Shown: piece by piece, positions 17,139-62,265 of the stretch
Layout of the letters: each line of letters opens with the position of its first letter
Position numbering within the stretch: the stretch's first letter is position 1
Virus record (IMG/VR): IMGVR_UViG_3300009514_000006
Span: 61,615-125,614 of that record
Source: a virus
Direction: 5' to 3' (one strand)
Length of the DNA: 64,000 nt
Position numbers and translations under genes: made by a program
The notes under the pieces: generated by a model
Seen by the model: the letters and a program-made list of their open reading frames with translations, nothing else
What the model was told of the DNA's origin: nothing
The model's database searches: none

Positions 17139-17223
17139 TCTATTTCCTTTCAAGTCATTCTCCGCCATTCCAGAGAACACCTGCAAAACTGACTTGGGCT
17201 CCTTTTCAATCATAACTTACCAG

Positions 17224-17252
17224 AGTATACAGATTTTTAGCACATTATACAA
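17224..17252 (-). promoter_or_regulatory. Promoter after the capsid terminator
   Basis: On the minus strand, TTGTAT (17252-17247), a 17-bp spacer and TATACT (17229-17224). A TATAAT word overlaps the -35 box at about 17250-17245 and may act as an alternative -10. The site lies just downstream of the 17.3 kb terminator and restarts transcription toward the accessory virion genes. Confidence 0.65.
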
Positions 17253-17278
17253 GAACAATTAAACCGCATACGAGAAGC

Positions 17279-17324
17279 AAAAAACCCCCGGACTTGACTA
17301 GTCCAAACAAGACAAGCCCGGGGG
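17279..17324 (-). terminator. Strong rho-independent terminator after the capsid gene
   Basis: Read on the minus strand, a 12-bp stem with one mismatch (CCCGGGCTTG-type arm at 17324-17313 pairing with 17296-17285) has a 16-nt loop. Six T residues (17284-17279) follow. It ends the head operon after the capsid stop at 17363. Confidence 0.88.
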
Positions 17325-17362
17325 TGTTAGTGCAACTAAACTAAGTAACAAGCGCTTAGCTA

Positions 17363-31481: not shown

Positions 31482-31510
31482 ACCATATCAAAAGCAAATT
31501 GCCATGTCAA
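31482..31510 (-). promoter_or_regulatory. Promoter of the HTH gene, leaderless geometry
   Basis: On the minus strand, TTGACA (31510-31505), a 17-bp spacer and TATGGT (31487-31482). Six nt follow, and the next base (31475) is the A of ATG. The mRNA would lack a 5' untranslated region, and no ribosome site can be placed. Confidence 0.75.
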
Positions 31511-31596
31511 CGTAAATATGTAGGACAGTGTCAGATAAGTCCTACACCAATTTGCCCTAATGACTAATCTTGGTCGCACACTTATTTACGAAATTA

Positions 31597-31789: not shown

Positions 31790-31912
31790 AAAAAACGTGT
31801 GTTTTATCATTAGGGGGTGAAAGGGGTGTGAGTGATGGGCTGTGGTGAAACAAGTGGTAAAGAAGTTTCTATATAGCACACATTCACTACTTTACTAAAA
31901 AACTCACCCTAT

Positions 31913-32024
31913 GAAGCGAAGCTTCTGGACTGGCTGATAAGCCAGTCAATGTGAATAAGTGAAACTGTGGTTCACTTATGTGTTTTTAAGCAGAGATCTG
32001 TCTTGAGATCAAGACAAGAGATCT
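31913..32024. other. Series of four hairpins between two transcription units
   Basis: Four inverted repeats lie in a row. They are GAAGC-GAA-GCTTC (31913-31925), GACTGGCT-GATA-AGCCAGTC (31928-31947), a 9-bp ATAAGTGAA stem with 7-nt loop (31955-31979), and TGTCTTGA-GA-TCAAGACA (31999-32016) with outer AGATC pairing (31994-32024). The first contains GCGAAGC, a word known to form an unusually stable single-stranded DNA mini-hairpin. Confidence 0.75.
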
Positions 32025-32032
32025 GAGCCACT

Positions 32033-32143
32033 AAAAACCCCTCAGCCCCTTTGATTACCCTCAGCCCATATGAGGACTAGGCGCCTTCGGCGCCCAGATG
32101 TGCTTCGCACATCAGGGAATTAGTTATTCTGTTTTCTGAGGGG
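32033..32143 (-). terminator. Branched terminator-like structure with two alternative 3' arms
   Basis: On the minus strand, CCCCTCAG (32143-32136) can pair with CTGAGGGG (32045-32038), which is followed by TTTTT (32037-32033). It can also pair with a nearer CTGAGGG (32064-32058) that has no T-tract. Inside the loop sit two adjacent perfect hairpins with GAA loops: GATGTGC stem (32113-32097) and GGCGCC stem (32094-32080). Together they could terminate transcription after the 32161 stop, or form a switching structured RNA. Confidence 0.6.
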
Positions 32144-32160
32144 GAGTGGGTGCCTAGGAG

Positions 32161-32421
32161 CTAGACAACTTCAACTGTGGCCCACACACCCGTTGGGGTG
32201 AAGATCAGGGCGCAGTCGTCTTCATCAATGACTAAGTCTCCTACTGAGACTCTTTTAGGTCTAAGTAGAACAGCTTCGCTGTGGTCATCCGGTTTAGCTA
32301 TTTTAGTGGTAATTTGAGACTTATAAGACGCCTCAATAGTTCCAACTTCTGTGTAGTCGTCTAAGGAGACTTTACTGGGAGCACGGGGCTCACCTTTTCT
32401 GTAGAATACTGTGTAGATCAT
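32161..32421 (-). CDS. Small protein cotranscribed with primase
   Basis: An 86-residue beta-rich protein (IYTVFYRKGEPRAPSK, EAVLLRPKRVSVGDLVIDED, ALIFTPTGVWATVEVV). The ATG overlaps the primase stop by 4 bp, so the two are translationally coupled. No domain is recognised. A role as a primase partner or replication accessory protein is suggested only by context. Confidence 0.65.
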   Translation of the reverse strand: MIYTVFYRKGEPRAPSKVSLDDYTEVGTIEASYKSQITTKIAKPDDHSEAVLLRPKRVSVGDLVIDEDDCALIFTPTGVWATVEVV

Positions 32422-33443
32422 TTGATTTTCCTTTGTAGCTTCCAGAGCCAGTAGTCTCCAGAGTCTGTGTAGATTGCTGTGTCAAGAGTTTCCTTGAGCC
32501 AAGGTTTAAGCTCTGGATATTGTAGCACAAGTCCGGGGTCTAGCTTCAGCTTACTTTCCTCTGGGAAGGGAATTATGTATACTGAAAATAGGTGGGCTAA
32601 CTTGTCTGCTGCGTCTTGAATGTCCTGATGGGCGTCAGGGTCCCAAGCAAAGTATACATTCTTGATTTTGTGCTTCTGAAGTAGTTCGATTTGGCTTGTA
32701 GATATTTTCTTACCAAAAGTGCACACAGCCGGGACCCCTACACTCAGGTACCCTAGTGCGTCGAAGACTCCCTCTACGATTACTATTGTGTCTTGTTCTT
32801 TGAGTTGGTCTAGGGGCCACAGCCACTGTTTGATATTCTCTGAGGATACGTACTTTGGGTCCTTATCAACTATACAGCGCCCCTGATAGGCCACTGTCAG
32901 CCCGAAATAATTGACGGGGAAAAGAACGTAGGGACCAGAGTGTCCTCTTAGGGAGCCAACCATAGCTAACTGGCGCTCCTTTATAATCTCTTCGCTGAGA
33001 CCTCTTTTTAGGAGGTAGTTGTACGCGCGGGTGCCGGTAACACCCTCGAAAGGTTCCGTCTGGGGCAGAGAGACTGTATCTATAGGTTCGGGTGCATCTA
33101 ATGTTTTATCTGGCTTAATTTTGTCTTGAACAGCACTTTCAAACTCGTTCTCCTTTTTCGCTGGAGACACAGTCTGGGCTAGTTCTATTTTAATGTCATT
33201 AAGGTGGCGACCACTAACTTCGGCCATCAGCCTACAGATGTCTCTGATGCCCTTCCCGAACCCACACCTCTGGCAATAGAACAATTTTTTCTCTACGCTA
33301 ACATAGAGTTTGCTCTTATCATTCAGGCATACGGGGCACACCCTTATTCGTATTTCTCCATCATTACGAAAGGTTATCTCCGTGTAGTCATTTAACCAGG
33401 ACTCTAAATCTAGGTCTTCTAATGCTTCTTCTAACTTAGCCAT
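32418..33443 (-). CDS. DnaG-type primase (zinc finger plus TOPRIM)
   Basis: A 341-residue primase. The N-terminal CHC2-like zinc ribbon has Cys36, Cys39, Cys57 and Cys60 (CPVC...CQRC). The middle (GTRAYNYLLKRGLSEEIIKE, VLFPVNYFGLTVAYQGR) matches the RNA-polymerase core of DnaG. The TOPRIM part carries 'IVIVEGVFDALGYLS' (Glu) and 'NVYFAWDPDAHQDI' (Asp-x-Asp). No helicase domain is fused, so a separate helicase must exist. It makes primers for phage DNA synthesis. It lies next to the AT-rich hairpin region, which supports an origin there. No clear ribosome site precedes the ATG. Confidence 0.9.
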   Translation of the reverse strand: MAKLEEALEDLDLESWLNDYTEITFRNDGEIRIRVCPVCLNDKSKLYVSVEKKLFYCQRCGFGKGIRDICRLMAEVSGRHLNDIKIELAQTVSPAKKENEFESAVQDKIKPDKTLDAPEPIDTVSLPQTEPFEGVTGTRAYNYLLKRGLSEEIIKERQLAMVGSLRGHSGPYVLFPVNYFGLTVAYQGRCIVDKDPKYVSSENIKQWLWPLDQLKEQDTIVIVEGVFDALGYLSVGVPAVCTFGKKISTSQIELLQKHKIKNVYFAWDPDAHQDIQDAADKLAHLFSVYIIPFPEESKLKLDPGLVLQYPELKPWLKETLDTAIYTDSGDYWLWKLQRKIK

Positions 33444-47142: not shown

Positions 47143-47489
47143 TATTCATGCTCCCGAAGGCTCAAAACAGCTACTGCCAGGGCACAGCCATCGCGAATAC
47201 CCTGCTCGTCCTCAGCAGACCAGTAGCTTGCTTGTTCCTCTATCAGTGTTATACAAGCGTCTCTTTCCTCTTTGACTCGGTCGTTTATTAGAATAGCTAG
47301 TTCTGTAGAATTCTTAATCTCTTCTGCTAGAACATAACCATAACTCAGATTGTTCTTTATCCATTTCTTCATTTCCATTACAGTAGCCTTCCTTACAGGT
47401 CTACTCTTCTTCTTAAAAAAGGGTATACTCGGAAGCCACCTTGGCAACCATCGTATCGAGTTGTCTACTTCTTTTACTAGTCGTTTCAC
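47142..47489 (-). CDS. Small protein coupled to the metalloprotease (115 aa)
   Basis: A 115-residue protein from a GTG start overlapping the upstream TGA (GTGA). The N-terminus is basic and Trp/Pro-rich (SIRWLPRWLPSIPFFKKKSR) and the rest helical (EMKKWIKNNLSYGYVLAEEI). It is translationally coupled to the second matrixin-like gene. No family is recognised. Confidence 0.5.
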   Translation of the reverse strand: MKRLVKEVDNSIRWLPRWLPSIPFFKKKSRPVRKATVMEMKKWIKNNLSYGYVLAEEIKNSTELAILINDRVKEERDACITLIEEQASYWSAEDEQGIRDGCALAVAVLSLREHE

Positions 47490-48007
47490 TGACAGTACCT
47501 TTCATTAAGCGCCACCACTGTCTTATGTGACGTTAACTGTGCTACTACATCTAGTACATACGGATGCATAACACTATGATCATCTAACTCATGTTGTAAG
47601 CCTATAGCGTGACCTAGTTCATGATCAAGCACTAAGAACATCTTATCATCATAAAACTTTCGTATACGAATTATCCCGAGCCATCCATCACTCATCTTAG
47701 TGAACTCAATGTCAGCAATAGTGTACCTGTCTTTTTGCTCACCTTCTAATACCCATATCTGGGCCTCTGAGAAGTCGCTGGTCATGGCCAATACTTCGCA
47801 CCCGGCCATTGTATTCCAATAGTTAATAGCTATATCTAGGTCATCTTGGTATCGACCTAAATCAGCAGCCAGGGCTACCTTTAGAGGTATCTTAGGCCAC
47901 ATAGGCGTCTTACGAAGCCACCCTGTTGAAGGGACTTTAGCGTTGTTGGAGTAGTGGCAACTGAATACTGCCACTATTAACGATATTACTACTAGGTAGA
48001 GCCTCAC
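47486..48007 (-). CDS. Second matrixin-like metalloprotease lipoprotein
   Basis: A 173-residue protein from a GTG start. Signal peptide 'YLVVISLIVAVFSC' ends in lipobox Cys17 (His at +2). The catalytic motif is HELGHAIGLQHE (His129, Glu130, His133, His139) with the Met-turn 'SVMHPY' (Met147). The third ligand follows metzincin spacing. Length and plan match the matrixin-like gene at 34776, although overall identity is low. Two such proteases in one phage is unusual. It would act outside the cytoplasm, anchored to a membrane. Confidence 0.82.
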   Translation of the reverse strand: MRLYLVVISLIVAVFSCHYSNNAKVPSTGWLRKTPMWPKIPLKVALAADLGRYQDDLDIAINYWNTMAGCEVLAMTSDFSEAQIWVLEGEQKDRYTIADIEFTKMSDGWLGIIRIRKFYDDKMFLVLDHELGHAIGLQHELDDHSVMHPYVLDVVAQLTSHKTVVALNERYCQ

Positions 48008-60289: not shown

Positions 60290-60712
60290 TTATAGCTTAT
60301 CGATGTGATCTTGGTATACCTGCTTTTCCTTTTCCCAGATATGCTTGGCTAGATCTACTATATTTGGTTCTACCTTCTCTCCATATACCCACCACTCTTG
60401 ATGGCCGTTGGCCATGTCAAGAGCGGGACCACCGATGCGGTGGAGTTCTCCATGTAGATACCAGACCTGGCCTCCATTGCTTCTTTCCACAGCCGGTCCA
60501 TTTTCCCTATGCGGTTTGCCGTGGTACCACCACTCCCTGTCTCCTTCAGGGGTCTCCACAGCCGGATCTATGAGACGGTGCTTGTTTCCTTGGTGGTACC
60601 ATATCTTCCAGCCGTTGGGAGTCTCTACAGCTGGTCCATCATCTCTGTGGAGGAGGTTATCTTTATACCACCGTTTAACGCCTTGTTTGTCGGTTTCAAG
60701 AATACTAGTCAT
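60290..60712 (-). CDS. HRxDGPA/MORN-variant repeat protein (140 aa)
   Basis: A 140-residue protein made of five repeats of about 22 residues, each like 'G...WY-x-x-G-x-x-HR-x-x-GPA-V-E' (DNLLHRDDGPAVETPNG, HGKPHRENGPAVERSNG, HGELHRIGGPALDMANG). This pattern, seen in large phages and giant viruses, is a MORN-like variant. A C-terminal helix (IVDLAKHIWEKEKQVYQDHI) ends the protein. Two relatives lie at 61395 and 61822. The domain's role is not known; beta-repeat binding surfaces are likely. Confidence 0.75.
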   Translation of the reverse strand: MTSILETDKQGVKRWYKDNLLHRDDGPAVETPNGWKIWYHQGNKHRLIDPAVETPEGDREWWYHGKPHRENGPAVERSNGGQVWYLHGELHRIGGPALDMANGHQEWWVYGEKVEPNIVDLAKHIWEKEKQVYQDHIDKL

Positions 60713-60713
60713 A

Positions 60714-61028
60714 CTAATCGTTGCTCACCGTGCCGCCGCTTGCTGCGCTGTTGGAGGCTGGTCCTACTACATAGAGTGCTTTAGCGATTGTCTCCCTTAC
60801 CTTCTCAGAGCCTGAAGGAGAGGTGTCTAGATAGTCAGCAGCAATTGCAGCAAGGTTATAGATGGTCTCTTTGAGGTCAAGAATCAGTCGCTCATTGGCG
60901 TATACTATATCTAGAGCTTTTGCTTCGTGCACGCATTTTACTCCCCAACATATAGTGTCTCTAGTAGCTGCTTCATATTCACGAAGTCTTTGTAGTTCTT
61001 GTTGTGTTTTACAGAGCTTGTCACACAT
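60714..61028 (-). CDS. Small helical protein (104 aa)
   Basis: A 104-residue protein with a Cys pair at the N-terminus (MCDKLCKTQQELQRLREYEA), a middle helix (YANERLILDLKETIYNLAAI) and a Ser/Ala-rich end. GGAATAAC precedes the ATG. Function unknown. Confidence 0.5.
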   Translation of the reverse strand: MCDKLCKTQQELQRLREYEAATRDTICWGVKCVHEAKALDIVYANERLILDLKETIYNLAAIAADYLDTSPSGSEKVRETIAKALYVVGPASNSAASGGTVSND

Positions 61029-61054
61029 TGCTGTTATTCCTTTCTTGGATCACT

Positions 61055-61420
61055 CTACTCTGTTTCGTTTGCTTCGACAAGATCAAAGTTCTTAGCTATC
61101 CCTGATAGTTTCTTTGACCAGGTTGCTGGCGGGTCTGTGTCGTGCATATCCTGCAAAGCAGTGAGTAGTTCCAGTGCCTCTTCTGGCAAACCTGACTTTT
61201 CCATTACTCTTGGATAGTGTTTAAACAGCTCATCAACACCCATTCCAATTTCTTCATCGAATGCCTTTTTGTAGTATTGGTCTGGAATCAAATACCCAAC
61301 AGGACATTTTCTGCCTCTCTGTCCTCGATAGGCACATAAGCCAGATTCTTTTTGTGACCTTTTGTTTTGCTCAAGTAAGTGTTTTTTCACTAAATCAAAT
61401 ATTTGTTGATTGGTTAGCAC
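61055..61420 (-). CDS. Conserved phage protein with CAYRG...CPVGYLIPD motif
   Basis: A 121-residue protein from a GTG start inside the end of the upstream gene. It has 'LCAYRGQRGRKCPVGYLIPD' and 'QYYKKAFDEE', a motif I associate with small phage and prophage proteins of unknown role. The rest is helical (LPEEALELLTALQDMHDTDP). Two Cys of the motif may bind a metal or form a turn. Confidence 0.6.
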   Translation of the reverse strand: MLTNQQIFDLVKKHLLEQNKRSQKESGLCAYRGQRGRKCPVGYLIPDQYYKKAFDEEIGMGVDELFKHYPRVMEKSGLPEEALELLTALQDMHDTDPPATWSKKLSGIAKNFDLVEANETE

Positions 61421-61832
61421 TAATTTGCTCCTGGTACTTGTCCCGATCTCGTTCCCACTCCCATTTAGCTATCTGTAGCACAGTGGGGGTAAATTTCTCC
61501 CCGTTTAGGTACCACTCCTTGTATCCGTTTGAGTACTCAACAGCGGGACCGTCTTCCCGATGTAGCTTCCCCTTTAGACACCACGCCTTGTGCCCGTTTG
61601 GGTGCTCAAAAGCGGGACCGTCTTCCCTGTGTCGCTTCCCGTTTAGGCACCACTCCTTGTATCCGTCGGGGTTCTCAACAGCGGGACCGTCTTCCCGATG
61701 TAGCTTCCCGTTTAGGTACCAAGCCTTGTCCCCGTTTGAGTACTCAATAGCGGGACCGTCTTCCCGATGTAGCTTCCCGTTTAGGTACCACGCCTTGGTC
61801 CCGTTTGGGCGCTCGATGAGTTTAGGTTGCAC
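61395..61832 (-). CDS. HRxDGPA-repeat protein (145 aa)
   Basis: A 145-residue protein of five tandem 22-residue repeats of the form 'G-x-K-x-WY/CL-NGK-LHREDGPA-x-E'. It ends with 'EKFTPTVLQIAKWEWERDRD' and 'KYQEQISA'. The GTG start (61832) lies inside the end of the neighbouring copy, where the same 'EQISA' codons carry the CAGGAG ribosome site. The 66-bp DNA repeats are nearly identical. Function unknown. Confidence 0.75.
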   Translation of the reverse strand: MQPKLIERPNGTKAWYLNGKLHREDGPAIEYSNGDKAWYLNGKLHREDGPAVENPDGYKEWCLNGKRHREDGPAFEHPNGHKAWCLKGKLHREDGPAVEYSNGYKEWYLNGEKFTPTVLQIAKWEWERDRDKYQEQISANQSTNI

Positions 61833-62265
61833 TAATTTGCTCCTGGTACTTGTCCCGATCTCGCACCCACTCCCATTTAGCTACCTGTAGCACAGTGGGG
61901 GTAAATCTATTACCGTTTAGGTACCACTCCTTGTATCCGTTTGAGTACTCAACAGCGGGACCGTCTTCCCGATGTAGCTCCCCATTTAGCCACCACTCCT
62001 TGTATCCGTCTGGGTGCTCAAAAGCGGGACCGTCTTCCCGATGTAGCTCCCCGTTTAGGCACCAAGCCTTGTTCCCGTTTGAGTACTCAATAGCGGGACC
62101 GTCTTCCCGATGTAGCTTCCCGTTTAGCCACCACTCCTTGTTCCCGTTTGAGTACTCAACAGCGGGACCGTCTTCCCTGTGTCGCTCCCCATTTAGCCAC
62201 CACTCCTTGGTCCCGTCTGGGTGCTCGGTGAGTTTAGGTCTATTAGTTCTCTTTTTGAAGCCCAT
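61822..62265 (-). CDS. HRxDGPA-repeat protein (147 aa)
   Basis: A 147-residue close relative of the 61395-61832 protein. It has five repeats such as 'NGERHREDGPAVEYSNG' and 'NGELHREDGPAFEHPDG', a basic N-terminus (MGFKKRTNRPKLTEHPDG) and the shared ending 'KYQEQISA'. It is the first of three family members. High identity of the 66-bp units, including silent sites, indicates recent duplication or conversion. The ribosome site is GGATGA. Confidence 0.75.
   Translation of the reverse strand: MGFKKRTNRPKLTEHPDGTKEWWLNGERHREDGPAVEYSNGNKEWWLNGKLHREDGPAIEYSNGNKAWCLNGELHREDGPAFEHPDGYKEWWLNGELHREDGPAVEYSNGYKEWYLNGNRFTPTVLQVAKWEWVRDRDKYQEQISAT

Follow-up and report, generated by a model that had tools for sequence, protein, structure and literature searches.

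A terminator-like RNA element with a branched loop and a repeated 3' arm downstream of a phage primase operon

Results

Genomic setting

The window analysed here, a stretch of 64,000 nt, makes up the right-hand end of an uncultured phage contig of 125,614 nt and is traversed by a train of genes on the minus strand. The genes and the predicted promoter that frame the element are the following (positions are those of the window).

32418..33443, minus strand: DNA primase gene (Toprim; phrog_47) of the upstream operon
32161..32421, minus strand: 86-aa ORF (orf86), the last gene before the element, with homologues in three related phages (G015, G016 and G017)
31482..31510, minus strand: predicted HTH promoter, TTGACA-17-TATGGT, whose -35 box begins 35 nt ahead of the start codon
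31212..31475, minus strand: HTH gene, encoding an 87-aa protein that is HTH_23/phrog_686-like, below the Pfam cut-off

The gene orf86 overlaps the primase gene by 4 nt, its stop codon lies within 20 nt of the start of the element, and 685 nt without a convincing gene separate it from the HTH gene. Two ORFs of 81 and 51 aa within this gap have no convincing family match, and a coding remnant was rejected on these grounds. The HTH gene is followed by a gene for a 234-aa protein and then by structural genes, including that of the portal protein. Farther along the same gene train, directly after the major capsid gene, lies a strong canonical terminator (17214-17362, minus strand; CCCCCGGGCTTG...CAAGTCCGGGGG followed by T6), which makes intrinsic termination plausible in the host. 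Elsewhere in the window, HELGHxxGLxH motifs, typical of zinc metalloproteases, occur in two phage ORFs (34776-35429, plus strand; 47486-48007, minus strand), and several ORFs at 60290-62265 (minus strand) are made of repeats such as REDGPAVEYSNGYKEWYLNG.

Anatomy of the element

Read on the minus strand, the element comprises the following parts.

32148..32160, minus strand: outer 5' segment CTCCTAGGCACCC, directly 3' of the orf86 stop codon; predicted to pair imperfectly with the distal arm as an alternative to the inner arm
32136..32144, minus strand: inner 5' arm CCCCCTCAG
32097..32113, minus strand: perfect 7-bp hairpin, GATGTGC-GAA-GCACATC
32080..32094, minus strand: perfect 6-bp hairpin, GGCGCC-GAA-GGCGCC
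32059..32075, minus strand: local hairpin, CCTCA-TATGGGC-TGAGG, able to occupy the proximal arm
32058..32064, minus strand: proximal 3' arm, CTGAGGG, with no T tract
32038..32045, minus strand: distal 3' arm CTGAGGGG, directly abutting the T tract
32033..32037, minus strand: T5 tract, the predicted termination zone (TTTTTAGT)

The pairing core of the inner 5' arm, CCCCTCAG (32143-32136), can form 7 bp with the proximal arm, whose next letters are TAATC, or 8 bp with the distal arm, which abuts TTTTT at 32037-32033. An earlier note on this DNA had described just such an arrangement, with one 5' arm facing two downstream CTGAGGG(G) copies of which only the distal one is followed by TTTTT, and two perfect GAA-loop hairpins placed side by side, 2 nt apart. 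All of these features are present, the hairpins at 32113-32097 and 32094-32080 with the dinucleotide TG between them. A 16-nt direct repeat contains the two 3' arms, one in each copy; the copies are 88% identical and 19 nt apart. As this similarity exceeds the 7 nt needed for pairing, it would fit a short duplication, from which the proximal arm probably arose as a by-product.

Rarity and stability of the fold

The combination of features in the element is not due to chance. The repeated arm together with the side-by-side hairpins was absent from all 3000 dinucleotide shuffles and occurred in a single one of 19,308 contig windows, that of the element itself. Across the whole contig, an 8-mer that has a perfect complement no more than 120 nt upstream stands before only one of 298 T5 tracts, again that of the element, and no other T-tract-abutting hairpin of the contig reaches as low an energy (-47.5 kcal/mol). 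The 141-nt fold has z = -2.7, while the 281-nt gap at 31880-32160 has z = -5.4, with none of 200 shuffles as good, and the lowest energy per nt among contig gaps of at least 110 nt. Relative to GC content, the most stable fold of the contig lies outside the window, in an intergenic gap at contig position 53171-53407 that holds a perfect inverted repeat of ~19 bp, GCCTTTACGGCACCTTTCC, flanked by TTAGCTTAG-like repeats.

The element belongs to a larger hairpin-rich block at 31913-32160 (z about -5.4), wider than the interval marked in the earlier note. With both strands considered, the further hairpins of the block are the following.

31913-31925: hairpin
31928-31947: hairpin
31955-31979: hairpin, followed by GTG and T5 on the plus strand; a weaker, terminator-like counterpart facing the opposite way
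31992-32025: hairpin

The plus strand folds equally well, with energies of -102.1 and -101.6 kcal/mol for the two strands, so that folding alone does not tell the strand of the element, which is indicated instead by the T5 tract abutting the distal arm. Rfam 15 gave no match at the gathering score in the 64-kb window and matches at chance level only under a lax threshold, and a riboswitch or other known non-coding RNA was rejected for lack of such a match. No tRNA was found, nor any tandem array by TRF.

Competition between the two 3' arms

Pairing at equilibrium was calculated for transcripts that start at 32450, 32300, 32220, 32160, 32151, 32148 or 32145 and end at 32036-32024. In a calculation on the growing transcript, the proximal arm, as soon as it has been made, is bound by the inner 5' arm (p about 0.9), and this pairing holds at equilibrium until the distal arm has another partner. 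The distal arm, when it appears, pairs in either case, with the inner arm or with the outer segment at 32160-32148 (CUCCUAGGCACCC as read in that direction), the latter pairing enclosing the inner-proximal hairpin. In every tested transcript the GGGG that adjoins the U tract has an upstream pairing partner with a probability of at least 0.97, and none of them showed at equilibrium the exclusive state with an unpaired terminator arm that defines an attenuator. Since the distal arm has a partner in these transcripts whether or not the proximal arm is used, the alternative pairing does not create an antiterminator at equilibrium. Of the choice between terminator and antiterminator that the earlier note had proposed as one possibility, the terminator half is supported by the anatomy, a GC-rich stem flush with U5 that follows the last gene of the operon and is the strongest such site of the contig, while the choice itself finds no support at equilibrium.

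We also used a crude helix-level Metropolis model of co-transcriptional folding, in which time is counted in an arbitrary unit. With short pauses the distal arm was often unpaired, and with longer pauses it paired with the inner arm in transcripts starting at 32220 or 32148; for the start at 32163, it stayed unpaired throughout in many runs. When the inner-proximal pairing was forbidden in the model, with the sequence left unaltered, the terminator formed in 64/80 rather than 7/80 short-pause runs for the start at 32148, and in 27/80 rather than 13/80 runs for the start at 32220, with little effect for the start at 32163. The model leaves room for the proximal arm as a kinetic decoy that slows terminator formation, and gives no evidence of regulation.

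These calculations bear on the idea of a regulated attenuator, in which the proximal arm would capture the inner 5' arm first and delay or prevent the terminator, thereby setting read-through into the HTH/structural operon, the balance being tilted by a ribosome that finishes orf86 (covering 32160-32148), by an RNA-binding protein or by pausing of the polymerase. The two arms do compete, both in the equilibrium pairing of the growing transcript and in the faster terminator formation that the model yields without the inner-proximal pairing. However, no equilibrium state frees the distal arm, the kinetic result rests on arbitrary time steps and Rfam holds no match. We consider a regulated attenuator unlikely and, as far as the modelling goes, possible in a kinetic form only. 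A more elaborate version, to which we would attach very little probability, is a terminator with three arms, where a ribosome at the orf86 stop codon would mask the outer segment while the proximal arm holds the inner one; termination would then depend on translation and on the speed of the polymerase, and would gate read-through towards the HTH/structural operon.

Related phages with the same gene order

No relative at the DNA level was found by a distant BLAST search of phages and plasmids or by a search of IMG/VR for the pattern of arms plus T tract, and scans with the single proteins (primase, HTH, portal) returned no relatives or non-syntenic ones only. Three syntenic phages were found through a capsid protein search, followed by HTH and primase searches of whole records. 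A scan with a primase alignment and a scan of genome contigs yielded distant relatives only, and an HTH-alignment scan of IMG/VR added no further syntenic phage.

The order of primase, small ORF and HTH gene is common to the three phages, G015 (IMGVR_UViG_3300049489_000321; 147.5 kb), G016 (162.6 kb) and G017 (71.8 kb). In G015 and G017 the orf86 homologue comes after the primase gene, and in all three phages it stands directly before the HTH gene; in G016 other genes lie between primase and orf86. The gap between orf86 and HTH is 24 nt in G016 and 31 nt in G017, which leaves no room for such an RNA, and neither phage has the element there. In G015 the gap is 382 nt long and carries a hairpin cluster of its own (L098 2961-3106, z = -4.6), with side-by-side triloop hairpins, no sequence similarity to the element and, at its end, an ordinary terminator (AATACCCACC-TTC-GGTGGGTATTTTTT, with a 10-bp stem, a TTC loop and T6). 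Across 793 kb of related loci, a covariance model of the element gave no match other than the element, within the limited reach of a single-sequence model. The element is best read as specific to its lineage. As two of the three syntenic relatives have no terminator here, a terminator is not essential at this locus. The absence of any intergenic RNA from G016 and G017, and of homologous arms from the gap in G015, also speaks against the attenuator.

That G015 has a hairpin-rich gap in the same place, with no similarity in sequence, could be taken to favour a stable non-coding RNA, either intergenic or derived from the 3' UTR, in which the hairpin block would protect the operon mRNA or act as a small RNA and the T tract would merely mark its 3' end. 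The folding of the whole 281-nt gap agrees with such an RNA. However, neither an Rfam family nor a homologue was found in the collections searched, and no promoter-like site was called directly upstream of the element; we regard a stable RNA of this kind as rather improbable.

A promoter-like site and repeats before the HTH gene

All four phages carry a -35-like hexamer that begins 35 or 36 nt ahead of the HTH start codon. The corresponding boxes in the relatives are TTGACA-16-TATTGT (G017), TTGACG-17-CAATAT (G016) and TTGTAA-17-TATCTT (G015). It should be noted that the boxes of G016 and G015 are weak by themselves (8/12) and that the constant position is what counts. This fixed position in 4/4 phages suggests that the HTH gene probably has its own promoter. 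The -10 box would end about 6 nt before the start codon, from which we infer that the HTH mRNA would be leaderless or nearly so. With the predicted promoter about 520 nt beyond the element, expression of the HTH gene need not depend on read-through. The conserved promoter-like site is a further point against the attenuator and, together with the absence of the element from two of three relatives, it weakens the earlier suggestion that the structure controls read-through into the HTH gene.

Directly upstream of the predicted -35 box, at 31519-31546, lies an inverted repeat, TGTAGGAC-12 nt-GTCCTACA, which is a candidate operator. Four copies of TTGACA occur on the plus strand within 190 bp (31598, 31665, 31716 and 31780), the only such cluster of the contig, and three of them are part of repeats that resemble TCGTTGTCAAG when read on the minus strand. 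As no matching -10 boxes were called there, these are probably protein-binding repeats near the HTH promoter.

The repeats nearby raise the question of whether the element acts as DNA, as a cruciform or as single-strand hairpins that would act in replication or bind proteins close to the primase gene. Besides the TTGACA cluster, its perfect hairpins and the equal folding of both strands are compatible with such a role, and GCGAAGC, present in one of the hairpins, is the core of a class of DNA mini-hairpins with unusual stability. Against this, the element is absent from the corresponding place in G016 and G017, and the T5 tract flush against the arm would be left unexplained. The slope of the GC skew changes here, but this change follows a switch in gene orientation; it is not diagnostic, and a replication origin called by GC skew was rejected. 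We therefore hold a DNA-level role to be quite improbable.

Discussion

With moderate confidence, we interpret the element as an intrinsic-terminator-like end of the primase-orf86 operon, with the HTH/structural operon read from its own promoter. As RNA polymerase reaches the U5 tract, the distal arm CUGAGGGG would pair with a C-rich segment upstream, right behind the enzyme, and the transcript would be released near 32033. The stem would close a branched loop of ~90 nt, compacted by the two GAA-loop hairpins and holding the second 3' arm, which lacks the U tract and may slow termination. The element would in this way insulate the primase operon, and transcription of the HTH/structural operon would begin at the putative promoter beside the HTH start codon.

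A terminator is supported by the upstream pairing of the distal GGGG, whichever 5' partner is used, and by the ordinary terminator in the corresponding gap of G015. Against it stand the size of the loop and of the whole structure, the short U tract (TTTTTAGT), the lack of a terminator at this locus in two of the three syntenic relatives, and the kinetic model, which often leaves the distal arm unpaired at short pauses. A multi-species Term-seq survey found a median terminator loop of 4 nt (PMC12207403). In one measured set, efficiency was already lower with loops of 9-10 nt than with one of 5 nt (PMC9271916), so that a low or pause-dependent efficiency is likely for the element. In the literature on branched or long-loop terminators, we found nothing direct. 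If the element does terminate, it is a natural intrinsic-terminator-like element invisible to the usual predictors, and such sites would be missed in phage annotation.

Comparison with known systems

With the canonical intrinsic terminator, as defined for TransTermHP (PMC1852404), the element shares its position behind the final gene of an operon and a GC-rich stem that runs directly into a T-rich tract. The stem is expected to have no fewer than 4 bp and to end at the T tract; here it has 8 bp (CCCCTCAG/CTGAGGGG) flush with T5. The T-rich tract, expected to hold at least 5 T in 8 nt, reads TTTTTAGT. The element differs in its loop, which is branched and about 90 nt long where the canonical limits are 3-13 nt, in its total length of 106 nt against a maximum of 59 nt, and in the second copy of the 3' arm inside the loop. 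The usual predictors are blind to the element because its loop branches and has about seven times the permitted length, and a simple terminator scan did not list it.

Attenuators, such as trp-type leaders and the expression platforms of riboswitches, resemble the element in having one 5' arm with two 3' partners, one of which carries a U tract. In contrast to these, equilibrium folding of the element never frees the terminator arm, no homologous RNA was found in the related loci, and the candidate regulated gene lies about 560 nt beyond the element, behind a promoter-like site of its own.

The hairpin cluster in the G015 gap is alike in gene order (primase, small ORF, gap, HTH), in its side-by-side perfect triloop hairpins and in its terminal T tract. 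It differs in sequence throughout and in its terminator, which is a simple hairpin of 10 bp closed by a 3-nt loop, and it has no such duplicated arm. At this one operon boundary of related phages, hairpin-rich insulators appear to come and go, and the promoter-like site before the HTH gene keeps its position.
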